38,406 nt of DNA from Thermoanaerobaculia bacterium (GCA_027067575.1 JAMOVQ010000104.1:1-38406); one strand, 5' to 3'; shown: positions 7,873-19,926, counted from the first letter of the stretch. Notes: generated by a model from the letters alone, not told the origin. Program-made: numbers and translations.

Positions 7873-9208
7873 GGCGTTGCCCCTCCCTCTCTCCGCCGCT
7901 GCCACCGAGCTGGGCGAGCAGGTCGCCGCCGGCCAGGTTCTCCAGCGCCAGCCGGGCCGCGGCGGCCTCGGTCCTGGCCCGGACGAGCGCCTGGCGCGCC
8001 CGGACCGCGTCGGCCTCGGCGTCCAGGAGCTCCCGGTTCGTGATCAGCTCCTCCCGGTACCGCAGCCTGGCCTGGCGCAACGCCTCAGTGGCCGCGTCCC
8101 GTGAGGCTCCCGCCGCCTCGACGGCCGCCTCGGCAGCCCGCAGCCGGATGGCGGCCTGTCGCACCTCCCGCCGGACCTGGCGCTCAAGGCGGCTCCGCCC
8201 CGCCTCGGCCTCCCGTGCCTCGGCCTCCAGAGCGGCGGCCCGGGCGACGGCGAGACCGCCGTCGAGGACCGGCAGGGTCAGGCCGACGGCGACGAGGGCG
8301 TTGTCCTTGTGCAAGAGGTAGTCGTCCTCCCGGTGCTGGATCGCCGCACGGCCACCGAGGACCGGCCGGCGCTCGGCCCGGGCGGCCTCGGCACGCGCCC
8401 GGAGGGCGGCCGCCTGCCGCGTGAGCGCCTCGAGCTCCGGCCGGGAGGCGACGGCGCGGGCGACGGCATCCCCGGCCTCCTCCGGTGGAACCGCCGGCAG
8501 GGGGGCCACCGACGCCACGGGCTCGCCCGTCAGTTCCTCCAGGGCGGCCAGCGCGCCGTCCAGACGGGCCTGAACCCGGATCCGGTCCAGGCGGGCGGCC
8601 TCCAGCGCCGCCCGGGCCTGGAGCTCGTCGGCCAGCGGGAGCTGCTCCTCCTCGACGAGCGCCGTCACCTGGTCGAGCAGCGCCCGGTACTCGCGGATCG
8701 ACGCGTCGGCGACGCCCAGGAGCTCCGCCGCCACCGCGGCCTCGCGGTACGCCGTCAGCGTGGCCAGGTCCACGGCCCTGAGAACCGCCCTCCTCCGGGC
8801 CTCCGCTGCGGCCGTCGCCTCGCCGGCCGCCTCCAGGAGAGCGTGGGTCCGCCCGGCGTCCCAGATCAGCTGCCGGAGCTCGACCGACGCCGTCCAGACG
8901 TTGCGCTCCCCGGCGACGAGCGGGAGATCGACGGGGTTGCCGAAGGCGCCACGCGGCACGATGAACCCGGGATCGGACCCCAGGAACCGGTCGTCGATCG
9001 TGGCGTCCAGGTGAGGCCGCCGGGCGCTCCTGACCTGCGCCTCCAGCGTGGCGGCCCGGTCAACGAGCGCCGACGCTTCCTCCACCGCCGGGCCGGTCCG
9101 GGCCAGCTCCAGCGCCCGGACCAGCGTCAGCTCCGCACCGGCCGCCCGGCCGGTTCCCGGCCACCCTGCCAGCGCCGCCAGGACGAGCGCCGCCACCGTT
9201 CGTCTCAT
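7862..9208 (-). CDS. TolC-family outer membrane efflux protein
   Basis: This is the outer membrane channel of a tripartite pump. The 448-residue product starts with a signal peptide (MRRTVAALVLAALAGW, cleavage probably after GTGRA) and contains two tandem outer membrane efflux protein repeats, each with long amphipathic helices, for example ELRQLIWDAGRTHALLEA and VGLTLPVLDGGLAVARA. Length fits the family (about 420-480). The ATG at 9208 overlaps the tetR stop by four bases (ATGA). An open frame continues far upstream, but that part is antisense or out-of-frame to tetR and is not coding. Confidence 0.92.
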   Translation of the reverse strand: MRRTVAALVLAALAGWPGTGRAAGAELTLVRALELARTGPAVEEASALVDRAATLEAQVRSARRPHLDATIDDRFLGSDPGFIVPRGAFGNPVDLPLVAGERNVWTASVELRQLIWDAGRTHALLEAAGEATAAAEARRRAVLRAVDLATLTAYREAAVAAELLGVADASIREYRALLDQVTALVEEEQLPLADELQARAALEAARLDRIRVQARLDGALAALEELTGEPVASVAPLPAVPPEEAGDAVARAVASRPELEALTRQAAALRARAEAARAERRPVLGGRAAIQHREDDYLLHKDNALVAVGLTLPVLDGGLAVARAAALEAEAREAEAGRSRLERQVRREVRQAAIRLRAAEAAVEAAGASRDAATEALRQARLRYREELITNRELLDAEADAVRARQALVRARTEAAAARLALENLAGGDLLAQLGGSGGEREGQRHDG

Positions 9209-9801
9209 GGTTCCCTCCCGCCGGCCTCGGGCCGGACGATTCCGTAGAAGAGCACGTCGAACAGCTCGTCCACCGTCGCCTCCGTCTCCCCGTCCTCCGC
9301 AAAGACCAGGGTGGTCTCGAGGTCCCGGAGCGCGTTCTGGACCCCACGGGCCAGCCGTTCCCGCGACGCATCCCTGAAGATCCCGCGGCGCTGGCCGTCC
9401 TCGAGGATCGCCTCGAAGAGGGCGCGCTCCCCGGCGGCGAACCGGCGCTCCTGGACCTCGCAGAGCGCGCGGATCTCCTCGCCGACCTCCTTGCCGATAC
9501 CGAGCACTTCGCGCAGCCAGGCGAGGTGATGGAGCCTCGCGAGCACCGCGCCGCGGAACCGCTCCCGGGGATCGGACGCCGCCTCGGCCGCAGCCCGCAT
9601 CCGCGCCAGGATCCGGTCCCCCTCGGCGTCCAGGACCGCCCCGAGGATCTCGTGTTTCCCGCCGGGGAAATGGTGGTAGAGCGCCGCCTTGCTGACACCC
9701 AGCGCCCTGGCCACGTCGGCCAGCGACATCTTCCGGGGCCCGTACCGCCCAAGCTGGGCCCTCGCCGCCTCCAGGATCCGTTCCCGCGTCAGCCGTGCCA
9801 C
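9205..9801 (-). CDS. TetR-family transcriptional repressor of the efflux operon
   Basis: The 198-residue protein has an N-terminal TetR DNA-binding domain: a LTRERILEAARAQL helix, then the helix-turn-helix SLADVARALGVSKAALYHHF with a GGKHEIL helix. A helical ligand-binding domain follows. GTG at 9801 lies behind a GGAAGGA site. It is the first gene of tetR-tolC-emrA-emrB, so it probably represses its own operon and is released by a pump substrate. An inverted repeat lies between the promoter and this gene. The ligand is not predictable from sequence. Confidence 0.92.
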   Translation of the reverse strand: MARLTRERILEAARAQLGRYGPRKMSLADVARALGVSKAALYHHFPGGKHEILGAVLDAEGDRILARMRAAAEAASDPRERFRGAVLARLHHLAWLREVLGIGKEVGEEIRALCEVQERRFAAGERALFEAILEDGQRRGIFRDASRERLARGVQNALRDLETTLVFAEDGETEATVDELFDVLFYGIVRPEAGGREP

Positions 9802-10494: not shown

Positions 10495-11052
10495 ATGAAC
10501 GACGAGCTGAACGGCACGACACAACAACCGGAGAGCCCCCAGGAGCCTGGGAACGTTCCACCACCGCCACCACCGGTGCCCGAGACGCCGCCACCCCCGC
10601 CTCAGCTCGGAACATCCGTTGGGTCCGCGGGCGGGCTCCGGAAGGCCGATCTGCTGAAACGGTTCATCGCCGCCGTGATCGACGCTGTGCTCGCCGGCAT
10701 CGTCAGCTTCGTCCCGGTGATCGGTGGGCTCGTGGGAGCCGCGTACATGCTGCTTCGCGACGGACTCGAGATCGATTTCATGGACGGCCGATCGCTCGGC
10801 AAGAAGATCATGAAGCTCCGGCCGGTCCGGCTCGATGGCGGCCCGATGGACATCGCAACCTCGGTCAAGCGGAACATCCCGTTCGCCATCGGCCCCGTGA
10901 TCATGATCGTCCCGGTGATCGGATGGATCATCGGGCCCATGGTCGCCATCGTGGTCGACCTCGTGGAGTCCGTCCTCGTCCTGACGGATCCCCAGGGCCG
11001 GCGGATCGGGGACAAGATGGCCGAGACCATGGTGATCGAGGTGGACGAGTAG
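10495..11052 (+). CDS. RDD-family membrane protein with proline-rich N-terminus
   Basis: The 185-residue protein has a disordered Pro-rich N-terminal region (about residues 1-45, with runs of six and five prolines) followed by an RDD-like domain. The first helix contains LLKRFIAAVIDAVLAGI with the usual Arg and Asp. A DGRSLGKKIMKLRPVR loop follows, and two more hydrophobic helices lie near IGPVIMIVPVIGWIIGP. RDD proteins are poorly understood; some have been linked to Na+ or other ion transport. It opens a tight operon with EIIA-like, PII-like and two antiporter proteins, so a role in ion homeostasis is reasonable but inferred. AAGGAGG precedes the ATG. Confidence 0.8.
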   Translation: MNDELNGTTQQPESPQEPGNVPPPPPPVPETPPPPPQLGTSVGSAGGLRKADLLKRFIAAVIDAVLAGIVSFVPVIGGLVGAAYMLLRDGLEIDFMDGRSLGKKIMKLRPVRLDGGPMDIATSVKRNIPFAIGPVIMIVPVIGWIIGPMVAIVVDLVESVLVLTDPQGRRIGDKMAETMVIEVDE

Positions 11053-11514
11053 GTGCGCCTCGCCGAGCTCCTCGATCCGGAGCTGGTCCTGATCGACCCG
11101 CCGGTCGGGACGCGGGAGGAGCTGTTCGCCCGGTTCGGTGCCGTGGTGGCACGGCGCCATCCGCAGCTCGATCGGTCGCGGATCGTGGAGGTGCTGCTCG
11201 AGCGGGAGGCGATCCTCGCCACCGGGGTCGGGAAGGGGATCGCCGTCCCCCATGGGCAGCTTCCCGATCTCGACGGTCTCGTCCTCGCCGCCTCGACGCA
11301 CCCCGGCGGGCTCGCCTATCCGTCTCTGGACGGCGAGCCCGTCAGGCTCGTCTTCTGCCTCCTCGGCGGACCTGGTAGCGCCGCACGGCACCTGGCGTGC
11401 CTTGCGCGGATCGCGCGGCTCGCCCGTCACGCCAGCTCCCTGGACCCCCTGGTCTCGGCCTCGTCGCCGCAGGAGTTTCTCGACCGTCTGCGGGGGCTGG
11501 AAGAGGAGGTGTGA
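11053..11514 (+). CDS. PTS EIIA type-2 (PtsN/fructose-type) domain protein
   Basis: The 153-residue protein is a single EIIA type-2 domain, which accepts phosphate from HPr on one histidine. The active site is clear: REAILATGVGKGIAVPHG, with His67 as phosphorylation site. Length matches stand-alone PtsN-type proteins (about 150). No EIIB or EIIC sugar-transport partner lies nearby. Instead it is followed without a gap by a PII-like protein and two antiporter-fold proteins, so it probably regulates ion transport, as PtsN does for K+ systems in E. coli. GTG start directly follows the stop of the RDD gene. Confidence 0.88.
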   Translation: MRLAELLDPELVLIDPPVGTREELFARFGAVVARRHPQLDRSRIVEVLLEREAILATGVGKGIAVPHGQLPDLDGLVLAASTHPGGLAYPSLDGEPVRLVFCLLGGPGSAARHLACLARIARLARHASSLDPLVSASSPQEFLDRLRGLEEEV

Positions 11515-11835
11515 GTGCACCTCCTGCTGGTGGTGGTCAACGATGAGGAGGCGCTGGACGAGGTGTTGACGGTCCTCGTGGAGCACGGTCTGCTGGACAC
11601 CGTGGTCCTCGAGGCACGGAGCGGTCTCGAGTTGCTGGAGCACGATCTGCCGATCTTTGCGGGCCTCCGCTCCCTCGTGCCGGGTGGGATCGACTTCTGC
11701 CGCCTCGTCCTGGCACCGGTTCCGGACGGCCTGGGCGACGCCGTCCTGGCCGACCTCAGCCACGTTCGCCACGATCCCGAGAGCCGCCCCGGGTTCGCCC
11801 TGCTCCTCGAGCCTGGCCGTCTCCTGACGATCTGA
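11515..11835 (+). CDS. Putative PII-like (ferredoxin-fold) regulatory protein
   Basis: The 106-residue protein begins MHLLLVVVNDEEALDEVLT and continues with a beta-rich DTVVLEARSG segment, IFAGLRSL and a second beta-alpha part. This beta-alpha-beta pattern resembles small trimeric PII-like proteins encoded beside transporters, where they bind nucleotides or other ligands. There are no membrane segments. The GTG start directly follows the EIIA stop, with GGAGG inside the end of that gene. The family assignment is from pattern and context, not a strong motif. Confidence 0.55.
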   Translation: MHLLLVVVNDEEALDEVLTVLVEHGLLDTVVLEARSGLELLEHDLPIFAGLRSLVPGGIDFCRLVLAPVPDGLGDAVLADLSHVRHDPESRPGFALLLEPGRLLTI

Positions 11836-11838
11836 GCC

Positions 11839-12981
11839 GTGGTCTCGGGTTCCCTCGCCTTCCTGGTGCTGCTGGTTCTCGCCGTCGGCGCATGGGAGGT
11901 GCAGCGGCTCGTCGGCCACCGGCTGCTCCTGCTGGAGGGTGTCGGTGTGCTCGGCCTCGGCATCGCCGCCGGGGGGCACGGTCTTGGGATCCTTCCCGAG
12001 GATCTCGTCAGGAACCTCCATCCTGTCGTTCTGGTCGGGATCGCGTGGCTCGGACTCCTCTACGGGCTCCAGATCGACCTCCGGGTGATCCGGAGACTCC
12101 GGCCGTGGCACCGGTGGAGCGGCCTTCTCCTGCCGGTCATCCCCGCCGCACTGGCCGGGCTAACCATCTTACTGGCATCGGGGAGGCCGGGGCCTGCCGT
12201 TCTCGTGGCCTCCGTGGCGACCATCGCCTCTCCCCGCCTCGCCGGGCTGGTCCTCGAGGGGAGGCGCCCGGCCGACCGTGGGCTCGTCCGGCTCCTCCGG
12301 GTCGTCATGGCGTTCTCCGGGATTCCGGCGGTGATCCTCCTGGCGGTGGGGACGACGCTGCTGGCAGACGGGGCCGTCGAGGGGCTGTCGGGGCTGGCCG
12401 GGGCGCTCATCCTCGGCCTGGCGTGCGGGTTCGCGCTGGTCCATCTCGGCACCGGTGAGCGTCAGGATATCCGGCTCATGATCCTGCTCCTCGGAGCCGT
12501 TGCGCTGACAGGAGGTGGTGCGGTCTGCACGGCCCATTCTCCCGTTCTGCCCGCGGTGATCGCCGGTGCCGTGGTCATCAACCGGACCTCGTCCCACCAC
12601 CGGCTGCTCCGTGTGGCCCACGCGCTGGAGTCGCCGCTGTACGTGGCGCTGCTCGTCCTGATCGGTGCCTCCTGGTCTCCGCACCGCCTGGACCTGGCGG
12701 TCCTCGGGGCGCTGACCCTGGCGCGGGGCCTGGGTTGGGTCGTGGCGGGGTCGATCCTCCGGCGTGTGGCCGGGGCGAGAGGGATCGTCCTCGGGGCCCG
12801 GACACCCGGCCTCGGCTGGCTGCCACAGGGTCCGCTCGCCATGGGGATGTTGCTGGCCGTGACGGAGCTGCTACCGGGCTCCGGTGGAATCCTCGAAGCG
12901 GGTGTGCTCGCCATCGTCGTCAACCACGTGGCCGGGCACCTGTGGGCCTCCCGCACCCTGCCGTCCCGGGAGGCACGATGA
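11839..12981 (+). CDS. CPA2-like antiporter-fold membrane protein lacking the usual ion-binding acidic pair
   Basis: The 380-residue protein has about 11-12 hydrophobic helices and the general layout of the NhaA/NapA (CPA2) fold: an early GHRLLLLEGVGVLGLG helix, a GLQIDLRVIRR loop typical of the family, and repeated Gly-rich helices. Where active members have an acidic pair in helix 5, this protein reads VVMAFSGIPAV (about residues 155-165) with no Asp. It may be a non-transporting partner of the next gene or a divergent transporter. GTG start three bases after the PII-like stop. It overlaps the next gene by four bases (ATGA). Confidence 0.72.
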   Translation: MVSGSLAFLVLLVLAVGAWEVQRLVGHRLLLLEGVGVLGLGIAAGGHGLGILPEDLVRNLHPVVLVGIAWLGLLYGLQIDLRVIRRLRPWHRWSGLLLPVIPAALAGLTILLASGRPGPAVLVASVATIASPRLAGLVLEGRRPADRGLVRLLRVVMAFSGIPAVILLAVGTTLLADGAVEGLSGLAGALILGLACGFALVHLGTGERQDIRLMILLLGAVALTGGGAVCTAHSPVLPAVIAGAVVINRTSSHHRLLRVAHALESPLYVALLVLIGASWSPHRLDLAVLGALTLARGLGWVVAGSILRRVAGARGIVLGARTPGLGWLPQGPLAMGMLLAVTELLPGSGGILEAGVLAIVVNHVAGHLWASRTLPSREAR

Positions 12982-14288
12982 CAGTCCGGTGGATCGTCCT
13001 CGCCTTTCTTGCGGCGGGCACCGCCCTCCTCCGGAGTCTGGCCCCCGTTCCCGGCGCCGAGCTGCTGAGCCTCGGGCTGATCCTCCTCGCCGGACTTCTC
13101 GCCGGAGACCTGGCCGAGCGTATCCGGCTCCCGCGGGTAACGGGTTACCTCGCCGTCGGGATGGGGCTCGGTCCGTCCCTCCTCGGGATCGTCCCCGGGG
13201 CGGACGTGGTGCGGCTTCGATCGTTCGAGGAGATCGCTTTGGGCCTGATCGCCCTGACGGCCGGCGGAGAGTTCTCGACCCGGATCATCCGCTCCCGGTG
13301 GAAGTTGCTGGTGGCCGTGACGGGGACCCACGCAGCGGTCATCGCGGCAGTCGTCGGGGGGATCGTCTGGGCTGCGCTGGGACGGTTCCCGTTCCTCGGT
13401 CCGCTGGAGCCGGGGGCCCGGAGCGCGGTGGCGCTCCTCGTGGGGGTCGTGGCCGTGGCGGTCTCGCCGGCGACCACAATTGCCGTCATCACCGAGACGC
13501 GGGCCCGGGGGGACCTCGTGGATGGTGTGCTCGGGATCACGATCCTCAAGGACCTCGTGCTGCTCCTGCTGTTCTCCGTGGCGTCGGGACTCGCCTTCCG
13601 GTGGACCGGCGGCCAGGCGCCTGGCGGTCTCGGCGGGCTGGCGATGCACGTCGGGCTCTCGCTGGTGGCGGGAGGGGCGCTGGGCGTGGGGCTCGGAGCG
13701 TACATGCGCTGGGTCGGGCGGCACACGGAGTTGCTGGTGGTCGCCCTGGCGCTGCTGGCCACCGAGATCGGGGCCGGTGGCACGCTCGAGCCGCTGCTCG
13801 TCTGTATGGCCGCAGGGTTCACGGCTCGAAACCTGTTCCCGTCGGCTGCGGAACCGTTCCTCCACGCGCTGGAGCGGGCTTCCCCGCCACTGTACATCGT
13901 CTTCTTCGCCCTCGTGGGCGCGGGGCTTCCGCTGGACGTCCTGGTCGCGGTAGGCCCCGCGGCCCTCGGCCTGGCCGTGGTCCGGCTCCTCGTGGTGATG
14001 GCCGCAACCTGGCTGCCCGCTGTCGCCGTGGGTGGCTCCCCCGTGTTCCGCCGCTACGGGTGGACGGGGTTCGTGGCGCAGGCCGGGCTCTCGCTCGGCC
14101 TGGCGGCGCGGATCGGCACCGAGATGCCGGGGTTCGGACGGGTGCTGTCCACGCTGATCATCGGCGCCATCGTCATCAATCAGCTGGCCGGTCCGATCCT
14201 CTGGCGGTGGGGGCTCGTGGCCGCCGGAGAGGCCGGAACGGCTCCGGATGGTGGTGCGGGCAACGGCCGCCACATGGAACGGCGCTGA
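12978..14288 (+). CDS. CPA2-type cation:proton antiporter
   Basis: The 436-residue inner membrane protein has about 12-13 helices of the Na+/H+ exchanger fold. Recognisable family parts are RLPRVTGYLAVGMGLGPSLLG near residue 50, FEEIALGLIALTAGGEF, the SPATTIAVI unwound-helix motif and ILKDLVLLLLF. The last carries Asp192, the likely ion-coupling residue, preceded by Lys191 instead of Asp or Asn. C-terminal helices include GFVAQAGLSLGLA, another family signature. It probably exchanges Na+ or K+ for H+. It is the last gene of the operon, and its ATG overlaps the upstream stop. Confidence 0.87.
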   Translation: MTVRWIVLAFLAAGTALLRSLAPVPGAELLSLGLILLAGLLAGDLAERIRLPRVTGYLAVGMGLGPSLLGIVPGADVVRLRSFEEIALGLIALTAGGEFSTRIIRSRWKLLVAVTGTHAAVIAAVVGGIVWAALGRFPFLGPLEPGARSAVALLVGVVAVAVSPATTIAVITETRARGDLVDGVLGITILKDLVLLLLFSVASGLAFRWTGGQAPGGLGGLAMHVGLSLVAGGALGVGLGAYMRWVGRHTELLVVALALLATEIGAGGTLEPLLVCMAAGFTARNLFPSAAEPFLHALERASPPLYIVFFALVGAGLPLDVLVAVGPAALGLAVVRLLVVMAATWLPAVAVGGSPVFRRYGWTGFVAQAGLSLGLAARIGTEMPGFGRVLSTLIIGAIVINQLAGPILWRWGLVAAGEAGTAPDGGAGNGRHMERR

Positions 14289-14306: not shown

Positions 14307-15467
14307 TCAGGGACGTCGGCCCCCGGCGATCGTCTCCACCGGGAACGTGCCGTTGCACCCGGATGCCTCACCGGTGAACCCGCTCCCGACAGCGGTGACG
14401 GTTCCCGTCATGCCGGCCGTCCCGTCGAGGGCGATGGTGAACGTCCACTCGATGGTCCCGCCGAGCTCGGGGTACTCCGACGTGAACGTGATCCCGTCGG
14501 CCAGCTCGGCCGGCGTGAACGGCGGATCGAAGGCGGCCGAGGCCAGAAAGATCCAGGTGCATTCGGGCTCGTCCTGGTCGTTCAGCTTGTCCCAGTTGGT
14601 GTAGGTCGCGTCGAGCACCGTGGCCACGCCGTTCTCCACCGTCAGGCTTCCGCCCGTGGCGTACCCGAGGGAGTCGTAGATCGCCAGGAAGTACGACCCG
14701 TCGAGCCCGCCGCCGCCCCGCCACCACGCCTCGAGCGTCGTGGGATCGCCGGAGCCGTCGTCGACCTTCGAGCCCACGACGATCACGGCGCCCGAGGTCA
14801 CCTCGGCGTGGACCGTGCCCTGGTCGAAGCTGCCGGCCCCGAGATCGGTGATCGGCAGGTACAGCGCCGCCATTGGGGGCAGCGTGTACCCCTTGCTGGC
14901 CATCGGGTTGCCCGCGGTGTCCAGCAGCTCAAACGTGACGCCCGCCTCGGAGCTTCCCGTGTTGACGGCGAACAGGTTCGTGTGGAACGTCCCGTTCTGT
15001 GCGAGACCGACGATGTCCGTCGCATCCCCGGCTCCCAGAGCCGCAGTCGCCGGAACCCCCTCGAACCCCTGGCCGAACGTCGCGCCGCCCGCCGTGTTGT
15101 AGATGCGGGAGTTGGCCACGAGCTCGCCCGTTGCGGCGATCCGGAACGCGCCACCTCCCGACTCGATTCCGAACGTGTCGAGGATCACGTCTTCGAGCAC
15201 GAGCGTCTGGCCGGGAGCTACGGTGAACGAGACCGGGGTCGCACCGGAGTTGTCCGTGTTACGGGCCAGCCAGGAGATATCGGCCGTCACCGACACGGTG
15301 CCGGGGTTGAACAGGTAGAGATCGGTCATCCAGACCGAACCGCCGGTTCCGGCGCCACGGGCGGCGGCCGGAACGAACAGCTCGGCACCGGGGTTCAGCG
15401 CCAGTACGCTGCCGGCGGCGAGTACGGTGACGAGGAACGGAATGGTGAGGGTGCGGCGAACGGTCAT
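14307..15467 (-). CDS. Secreted protein with LNPG/VPAAAR N-terminal module, paralogue A
   Basis: The 386-residue protein starts with a signal peptide (MTVRRTLTIPFLVTVLAAGSVLA) directly followed by LNPGAELFVPAAARG and VWMTDLYLFNPG. About 245 residues of beta-rich sequence are shared with the next gene upstream, including TFGQGFEGVPA, ITDLG and VVGSKVDDGSGDPTTLE. After a Gly-rich linker the C-terminal 130 residues (YFLAIYDSLG to the end, two Cys) are unrelated to the paralogue. It is exported and beta-sandwich-like; the role is unknown. The ATG at 15467 has GGAGG four bases upstream. The in-frame extension to 15524 lacks a signal peptide start. Confidence 0.8.
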   Translation of the reverse strand: MTVRRTLTIPFLVTVLAAGSVLALNPGAELFVPAAARGAGTGGSVWMTDLYLFNPGTVSVTADISWLARNTDNSGATPVSFTVAPGQTLVLEDVILDTFGIESGGGAFRIAATGELVANSRIYNTAGGATFGQGFEGVPATAALGAGDATDIVGLAQNGTFHTNLFAVNTGSSEAGVTFELLDTAGNPMASKGYTLPPMAALYLPITDLGAGSFDQGTVHAEVTSGAVIVVGSKVDDGSGDPTTLEAWWRGGGGLDGSYFLAIYDSLGYATGGSLTVENGVATVLDATYTNWDKLNDQDEPECTWIFLASAAFDPPFTPAELADGITFTSEYPELGGTIEWTFTIALDGTAGMTGTVTAVGSGFTGEASGCNGTFPVETIAGGRRP

Positions 15468-15540
15468 CGGTACCTCCATGGATCTCCGGATCATCGTAAC
15501 ACGAGGAAGGGACGTTCGGCCCACGGGGGCGGTTGACAGG

Positions 15541-15589: not shown

Positions 15590-16756
15590 CTACTTGGAGA
15601 GCGTCAGGATCGTGTGGCCCGCGTAGAAGCCGACCGTGTTCATGTCGCCGGCGCACTTTCCCGAGCCCATGCCGGAGACGTTGAGGTCGAGGTTCCCGAG
15701 GAGGGTGTCCTCCTGGAGCGCGCCCTGGAAGTTGAATGTCAGCACCCCGCCGCTCGAGTACTCGACCTGGAAGCTGGCGGTAAAGGTACCGTCCGCGGCG
15801 ATGGCGACCGGCGTGTCCGGCTCCCAGCCCCACCCGAAGACGTTGGCGCAGTTCATGCCGCCGTCGTCCGGGCTGAACAGCACGTTGGCGCCCTGCATGT
15901 AGGTGATGGCGTTGTTCTCCACCACGACCAGCAGGCCACCGACGTAGGTGTAGTTGGTGTACCCGACGTAGATGCCGTCACCACCGCAGGCACCGCCGCC
16001 GCCGCCGCCACCACCGCTGCCCAGGGCCCACCAGGACTCGAGGGTGGTCGGGTCGCCCGAGGCGTTGTCCACCTTGGAGCCCACGACGATCGCCTGGCCC
16101 GCCGTCACCTCGGCGTGGAGGGTCCCCGCATCGAACGACGGACCGCCCAGATCGGTGATGTTGCGGTAGAACGCCGAATACGGCGGCAGGGTGTACGCCC
16201 GGGAGGCCAGCTGGTTGCCGGACGGATCGGTCAGCGTGAAGGTGATGGACGCCGCCTCGCTCCCGGTGTTGACCGCGAAGAAGTTGCTCCGGAAGGCGTC
16301 GTTCTGAGCCAGGCCCACGATGTCCGTGGAACCGCCGGCGGCGAGGGCCGCGGAGGCCGGAACGCCCTCGAACCCCTGGCCGAACGTCGCCGAGCCGTCC
16401 GTGGAGTAGATCCGGCAGTTGGCCACCACGTCGGCATCGGAGGTGATCCGGAACGCGCCGCCCGCCGAGTCCAGACCGAAGGTCGTGGAGATCACGTCCT
16501 GGAGGATCAGCGTCTGGCCCGCATTCACCGTGAAGTTCACCGGGCTCGCACCCGAGTTGTCCGTGTCGCGGGGCAGCCAGTAGACGGACACGGCCGCCGC
16601 GCTGTCACCCGGGTTGAAGATGTACAGGTCGGTCACCCAGGCTCCGGCACGTGCCGCGGCCGGCACGAAGATGTCCGATCCGGGGTTGAGGGCCAGGGCC
16701 GGTGCCGCCATGGCCAGCAGGGCCACCAGCGTCACTGCGAATACCGTTCTTCTCAT
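15590..16756 (-). CDS. Secreted protein with LNPG/VPAAAR N-terminal module, paralogue B
   Basis: The 388-residue protein has a signal peptide (MRRTVFAVTLVALLAMAAPALA) followed by LNPGSDIFVPAAARAG and WVTDLYIFNPGD. The first roughly 245 residues align closely with paralogue A. A run of eight glycines then leads to a different C-terminal domain with three cysteines (GGGACGG, MNCANV, GKCAG). Shared segments include NTDNSGASPV-like DTDNSGASPVNF and SWWALG. It is exported and probably all-beta. GGAGG lies eight bases before the ATG, and a TTGCAG/TAGGAT promoter lies further upstream. Function is not known. Confidence 0.82.
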   Translation of the reverse strand: MRRTVFAVTLVALLAMAAPALALNPGSDIFVPAAARAGAWVTDLYIFNPGDSAAAVSVYWLPRDTDNSGASPVNFTVNAGQTLILQDVISTTFGLDSAGGAFRITSDADVVANCRIYSTDGSATFGQGFEGVPASAALAAGGSTDIVGLAQNDAFRSNFFAVNTGSEAASITFTLTDPSGNQLASRAYTLPPYSAFYRNITDLGGPSFDAGTLHAEVTAGQAIVVGSKVDNASGDPTTLESWWALGSGGGGGGGGACGGDGIYVGYTNYTYVGGLLVVVENNAITYMQGANVLFSPDDGGMNCANVFGWGWEPDTPVAIAADGTFTASFQVEYSSGGVLTFNFQGALQEDTLLGNLDLNVSGMGSGKCAGDMNTVGFYAGHTILTLSK

Positions 16757-17007: not shown

Positions 17008-17084
<77 letters not shown>

Positions 17085-17106
17085 TCCCGGCGGAGAGGGT
17101 TGAGAA

Positions 17107-17183
<77 letters not shown>

Positions 17184-17197
17184 GGAGCCGGACTCGT

Positions 17198-17274
17198 GGT
17201 GGGCGTAGCTCAGCTGGTAGAGCACAGGATTGTGGCTCCTGTGGCCGTGGGTTCGAGCCCCATCGCCCACCCCA
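17198..17274 (+). tRNA. tRNA-His (anticodon GTG) with encoded G-1
   Basis: Acceptor GTGGGCG (17199-17205) pairs with CGCCCAC (17264-17270). An extra G at 17198 (G-1) faces C73 at 17271, the identity pair of tRNA-His, so G-1 is genomically encoded. The anticodon loop is TTGTGGC, and CCA is encoded at 17272-17274. It is the substrate of HisS at 3617. Confidence 0.96.
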
Positions 17275-17277
17275 TGT

Positions 17278-17354
17278 GTGCCCGTAGCTCAGCTGGATAG
17301 AGCGTCAGACTCCGGATCTGAAGGTCGCGCGTTCGAATCGCGCCGGGCACACCA
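17278..17354 (+). tRNA. tRNA-Arg (anticodon CCG)
   Basis: Acceptor GTGCCCG pairs with CGGGCAC (17344-17350). The anticodon loop is CTCCGGA within CAGA/TCTG arms, the T arm has CGTTCGAATCG, discriminator A, and CCA is encoded at 17352-17354. It starts only three bases after tRNA-His. Confidence 0.96.
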
Positions 17355-19769: not shown

Positions 19770-19846
19770 AGGCGCGTAGCTCAGCTGGTTAGAGTGCTAC
19801 CTTGACACGGTAGAGGTCAGCGGTTCGAGTCCGCTCGCGCCTACCA
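19770..19846 (+). tRNA. tRNA-Val (anticodon GAC)
   Basis: Acceptor AGGCGCG pairs with CGCGCCT (19836-19842). The anticodon loop is TTGACAC within CTACC/GGTAG, the T arm has CGGTTCGAGTCCG, and CCA is encoded at 19844-19846. Confidence 0.96.
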
Positions 19847-19849
19847 CGA

Positions 19850-19926
19850 AGGCGCGTAGCTCAGTTGGTTAGAGCGCATCCCTCACACGGATGAGGTCCG
19901 CGGTTCGAGTCCGCGCGCGCCTACCA
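19850..19926 (+). tRNA. tRNA-Val (anticodon CAC)
   Basis: It has the same acceptor stem as the preceding tRNA-Val, with anticodon loop CTCACAC within CATCC/GGATG and an encoded CCA at 19924-19926. The high similarity to its neighbour suggests a local duplication followed by anticodon change. Confidence 0.96.

Follow-up and report, generated by a model that had tools for sequence, protein, structure and literature searches.

The antiporter locus described here lies at positions 10495-14288 on the plus strand of a 38,406-nt stretch of DNA from a Thermoanaerobaculia bacterium (phylum Acidobacteriota); the whole stretch is called the window. Five open reading frames (ORFs), all on the plus strand, were found in the order RDD, EIIA, PII-like, AP1, and AP2:

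10495-11052, plus strand: RDD-family membrane protein, first gene (185 amino acids; PF06271, 2.6e-11)
11053-11514, plus strand: EIIA phosphoacceptor of the PtsN/fructose type (153 amino acids; PF00359, 6.8e-20; H67 in GIAVPHGQ)
11515-11835, plus strand: PII-like protein (106 amino acids; ferredoxin-like fold in the model; conserved loop DLPIFAGLR)
11839-12981, plus strand: AP1, protein with the CPA antiporter fold but no acidic pair, from model and alignments (380 amino acids)
12978-14288, plus strand: AP2, CPA cation/proton antiporter (436 amino acids; PF00999, 8.9e-21; K191-D192)

The AP2 start is an ATG internal to a longer, mechanically called ORF. The junctions between the five genes are 0, 0, 3, and -4 bases, and the GC content at third codon positions is uniform over all five genes (0.85-0.87). 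The coordinates and gene order of the first-pass annotation were confirmed. It had also reported no sugar permease parts, and the operon holds none; a sugar phosphotransferase system (PTS) was ruled out, as EIIB and EIIC are missing from the operon. The linkage of these genes is not due to chance, because ten genomes of the family share it and it is met again in other families and phyla. We consider it fairly probable that the locus encodes a dual-regulator antiporter, in which an AP2/AP1 unit of the CPA type would be controlled in trans by EIIA and the PII-like protein.

Predicted antiporter subunits and regulators

AP2 matched PF00999 with 74.6 bits (cut-off 26.2) over residues 36-407 of 436. 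Its D192 was invariant (11/11) and aligned with the ND aspartate of MjNhaP1, and the residue before it is Lys (K191) in this family. AP1 had no Pfam match. The AP1 model, with a predicted local distance difference test score (pLDDT) of 90, matched MjNhaP1 (Z 29.1, root-mean-square deviation 4.4, 365 residues aligned) and NapA (Z 28.1), and AP1 was homologous to AP2 (hhalign 99.6%). The acidic pair of transmembrane helix 5 is absent from AP1, which has S160-G161 at the position of D156-D157 in NapA; distant AP1 proteins keep DD. Because Ser-Gly replaces the acidic pair despite a complete fold, AP1 is probably a degenerate, inactive partner subunit. The first-pass annotation had described two antiporter-fold proteins; both have the fold, but they are not equivalent. 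No RCK, CorC, or other cytoplasmic domain was matched by Pfam in AP1 or in AP2, which ends 29 residues past PF00999, and this fits regulators supplied in trans.

AP1 and AP2 might instead be independent homodimeric transporters with different substrates, AP1 being a cation-independent carrier. AP1 does keep the full antiporter fold although its acidic pair is gone, and crossover-elevator carriers that are independent of cation gradients exist, such as PIN (PMC9477730). However, most genomes with AP1 have AP2 right beside it, with or without the regulators, which suggests a joint function. We find this alternative doubtful; it concerns only the transport half of the proposal and is compatible with regulation by EIIA and the PII-like protein.

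EIIA matched PF00359 with 71.9 bits (cut-off 27). Its phosphoacceptor His (H67, motif GxAxPH) was kept, and was conserved in 13/13 and 61/61 of the relatives compared. The PtsN equivalog TIGR01419 matched the operon EIIA below its cut-off (69.1 bits vs 138.7). HPr (46419) and EI (47450) lie together on one contig of the genome (G000:C47). A separate PtsN-type EIIA (43663) lies beside HPF on the same contig, the pair spanning 43.0-44.0 kb. The objection that the genome might lack HPr and EI fails, because both are present, as is the separate PtsN. The EIIA of a Spirochaete (L094, 2026-2478) also matched the profile of the band 3 cytoplasmic domain (PF07565, 3.1e-6), below the cut-off.

The PII-like protein of the window itself had no Pfam match. 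Its relatives matched PF00543 (P-II) above the curated cut-off in Omnitrophota (8e-8), a Spirochaete (2.3e-5), and Bacillota (7.9e-6), and a profile of 22 relatives gave PII proteins as its first PDB matches (2.5e-4). The AlphaFold model (pLDDT only 77) matched GlnK (Z 10.8), PotN (Z 10.6), and also PII; in a structure search with this model, 49 of the 50 best entries were PII or PII-like. The small protein is PII-like as judged from sequence and model, because its relatives match P-II, the family profile finds PII, and the model matches PII structures. Two marks of canonical PII proteins (GlnB/GlnK), the nucleotide motif TGxxGDGKI (PMC6516651) and the uridylylated Tyr of the T-loop, were absent from the alignment. 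The clade of the window also lacks the NKT and GTG motifs, which are common to other members of the PII-like family. A loop of the form (D/E/H)-(V/L/I)-P-(I/L/V)-F-A, which corresponds to the T-loop region by position, was kept in CPA-linked and Mrp-linked members. A separate PF00543 protein is encoded elsewhere in the genome (C60).

Conservation of the locus

Within the bacterial family, the order RDD-EIIA-PII-AP1-AP2 was found in the window and at five other loci (L033, L035, L037, L038, and L045). At two loci (L034 and L036), EIIA-PII-AP1-AP2 follows a different small membrane protein; at another (L041), EIIA-PII is convergent to AP2-AP1; and one genome (G011) has a divergent AP1-AP2-EIIA-PII set. 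Each of the ten AP1-bearing genomes found in the family also has both regulator genes, for EIIA and the PII-like protein, at this locus. RDD was conserved at six loci of the family, including L042, which has RDD and EIIA with the antiporters missing. A five-gene core that includes RDD was ruled out, since RDD was found only in this family, is replaced in L034 and L036, and stays with EIIA in L042. The five-gene order expected by the first-pass annotation therefore recurs in the family, but RDD stands outside the core and is probably a local positional neighbour. Two EIIA genes of the family are irregular, through decay or an assembly error: one has an in-frame TAG near its start (L043, 7706-8341, genome G003), and the other is split across two frames (L045, 8891-9350, genome G013).

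The survey of Acidobacteriota covered 396 genomes, and adjacency was counted from the neighbourhoods. The PII-like gene was present in 29/396 genomes; EIIA was adjacent in 28 of the 29, and AP1 and AP2 in 22. In two genomes of the family f75 (L082 and L083), EIIA and the PII-like protein are fused into one ORF. A hypergeometric test of co-occurrence (29/29 vs 62/396) was given no weight as proof, since PII-linked loci had contributed to the AP1 profile and the genomes are related to one another. EIIA homologues of other classes (L046-L049 and L051) were considered as distant copies of the system and ruled out, with no PII-like, AP1, or AP2 gene nearby. At two loci (L071, 985-2316; L074, 1012-2317), the PII-like gene lies between two EIIA genes, of which the second is convergent and belongs to another EIIA clade.

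In the EIIA tree, the EIIA of the window family grouped, with modest support, with PtsN-like EIIAs; most PII-linked EIIAs from other families fell elsewhere, and the fused EIIA of f75 lay apart. These groupings suggest that EIIA was recruited repeatedly to the PII-like neighbour; this is only a suggestion, because the deep branches have support values of 75-92.

The regulators were also found in other phyla. In Desulfobacterota, the PII-like gene is convergent to AP2-AP1 (L092 and L093), with EIIA also present in L093. In Spirochaetes (L094 and L096, and L095 by partial evidence) and Omnitrophota (L097), the PII-like gene and EIIA head an Mrp operon. The Pfam matches in L094 were MnhE, MrpF, MnhG, MbhE (just below the cut-off), MnhB, MnhC, and MrpD, and subsets of these were matched in L095-L097. 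Mrp is unrelated to the CPA antiporters in sequence and fold, so the Mrp link is a separate association of the regulators, though with transporters that serve the same physiological function. Members of Bacillota have the PII-like gene without EIIA; it adjoins one lone CPA antiporter (L152) or, in Acetoanaerobium noterae, immediately follows a DcuC/YfcC carrier (L151, 6383-8348). The latter neighbour hints at a wider transporter-linked PII-like family.

The operon is flanked on both sides by genes of the opposite strand, with names read from the sequence:

9205-9801, opposite strand: TetR-type ORF, upstream flank
14307-15524, minus strand: secreted-protein gene, downstream flank

The downstream gene and the ORF at 15590-16756 (minus strand) encode tandem paralogous secreted proteins with the motifs ALNPGxDxxVPAAxR and TDLYxxNPG. 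In most relatives (L032, L034, and L039-L044), a member of this secreted-protein family lies next to the EIIA locus. A cluster of four tRNAs (Pro, Arg, His, and Arg) lies at 17008-17354 (plus strand) and a pair of tRNA-Val genes at 19770-19926 (plus strand); an Rfam search of the window gave tRNAs only.

Proposed regulation and its alternatives

In the proposed mechanism, the five genes would be expressed as one transcript. AP2 would be the active subunit and AP1 its degenerate partner in a CPA-type cation/proton antiporter, most likely a heteromer, and the transported ion would be Na+ or K+. EIIA would report the phosphorylation state of EI-HPr, that is, the phosphoenolpyruvate (PEP)/pyruvate status, and the PII-like protein would report a small ligand, probably a nucleotide. 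We infer direct binding of both regulators to the antiporter, as well as the direction of control; they would replace in trans the role that RCK has in YcgO/KefC. The first-pass annotation had already proposed that the antiporter operon contains EIIA and the PII-like protein as integral members, and this is borne out by the kept phosphoacceptor His, the PII-like fold, the tight junctions, and the recurrent linkage. The two proteins are predicted to regulate the antiporter.

Because the EIIA/PII-like pair accompanies unrelated antiporter classes in relatives, it appears to be a portable module for the control of cation/proton antiport, one that has also been joined to Mrp. A broader proposal is put forward tentatively. 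A dual-input module may have been attached independently to CPA heteromers in which one subunit is catalytically dead and to Mrp complexes; it would link ion/pH homeostasis to PEP/pyruvate and a second metabolite, and a PII-type regulator would then act on a transporter that is not a trimer.

Several observations weigh against a dual-regulator antiporter. In six relatives of the window, EIIA is all that remains, in most of them at the same genomic position, beside the secreted protein and dnaX. Searches of these six genomes, several of which are incomplete, found neither the PII-like gene nor AP1; by the same searches, and with the same incompleteness, a relocation of the antiporter elsewhere in these genomes was ruled out. 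As the six are nested among the system-bearing relatives in the EIIA tree, loss of the PII-like gene and the antiporters is the simpler reading. In the wider survey, seven genomes (families f19 and f60) hold the EIIA/PII-like pair without adjacent antiporters; in one of them (G153) the contig ends just past the pair. AP1-AP2 stands without either regulator within several kb at at least 11 Acidobacteriota regions (L131-L136, L138-L141, and L144 are such tandem regions). With NKT and GTG lost, it is unsure whether the PII-like protein of the window binds a ligand. CPA antiporters are dimers. According to a review, it is apparently only trimeric transporters that PII proteins control (PMC10710835). 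An antiporter dimer with a PII-like partner would therefore be an exception or need a different geometry.

Relatives with the antiporters and without the regulators would speak against a linked system. Within the family none was found, all ten AP1 genomes having both regulators, but outside it such regions do occur. Two modules, combined often but not always, are a better reading than a fixed five-gene system, because AP1-AP2 occurs without the regulators and the EIIA/PII-like pair without the antiporters.

EIIA and the PII-like protein could also form a mutual signalling pair, in which the PII-like protein modulates EIIA or its phosphorylation, the main targets lie elsewhere, and the antiporters are just frequent neighbours. 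The pair is the most conserved unit, being adjacent in all but one of the PII-like genomes of the survey, fused in f75, and alone in f19 and f60. However, most of the transporters linked to it are cation/proton antiporters, which belong to two unrelated classes and occur in several phyla, and the Bacillota PII-like gene adjoins a CPA antiporter where EIIA is missing. This alternative is unlikely. It is quite improbable that the PII-like protein alone controls the antiporter and that EIIA, a PtsN copy of general regulatory role that was displaced, lies in the operon by chance: the place of the window-family EIIA near the PtsN-type EIIAs (modest support), the six relatives with EIIA but neither PII-like gene nor AP1, and the PII-like gene with CPA but without EIIA on a Bacillota plasmid and in G407 agree with it, whereas the near-constant adjacency of EIIA (28/29) does not, and recruitment of EIIA more than once to the same neighbour, if it occurred, argues for a function there.

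Comparison with known systems

In the open-access literature, no described system was found that joins PTS EIIA and PII-like control of an antiporter; separate precedents only were found. The locus thus joins regulators and transporters of known kinds in a way not found described there, as the first-pass annotation had supposed of this gene set. The system offers a handle on the ligand of a PII-like protein that lacks the canonical motifs. The AP1-AP2 pair raises the question of whether CPA antiporters can be heteromers with a dead subunit.

The nearest precedent for the EIIA input is in E. coli, where unphosphorylated PtsN binds and inhibits the CPA1 K+/H+ antiporter YcgO (PMC11808508). As proposed here, a PtsN-type EIIA regulates a CPA antiporter through phosphorylation-dependent binding. 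PtsN, however, binds the cytoplasmic RCK/CorC region, which AP1 and AP2 lack, and the E. coli system has no PII-like protein and a single antiporter instead of a pair. In E. coli, ptsN is not known to share an operon with the antiporter gene. KefC and KefB are also CPA antiporters (K+ efflux) under metabolite control, but their RCK control domain is fused to the antiporter, the ligand is glutathione, and there is no PTS link.

For the PII-like input, SbtB binds SbtA, a Na+-dependent bicarbonate transporter (PMC8352866) whose crossover-elevator topology is grouped with that of NapA (PMC9477730). In both cases a PII-like protein is encoded in an operon with a crossover-elevator transporter; binding is known for SbtB and proposed here. 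SbtA differs in being trimeric and of another family, and no EIIA is involved. The PII gene of GlnK-AmtB likewise adjoins the gene of the transporter that GlnK plugs (PMC10710835), but AmtB is a trimeric ammonium channel and GlnK is a canonical PII protein with uridylylation. The module would test the claim that PII proteins regulate trimeric transporters only (PMC10710835).

An EIIA-type domain (EIIA-Glc-like) is attached to the secondary transporter LacS (PMC10710835). LacS belongs to another transporter family, and its EIIA is of another class. The cytoplasmic domain of band 3 (SLC4) has the EIIA fold, so that an EIIA-type domain again sits on a secondary transporter, though of another family. 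PTS control of an antiporter is known, as is PII control of transporters, but from separate systems; the module proposed here, if true, would join them and tie carbon status to cation/proton homeostasis across several phyla.

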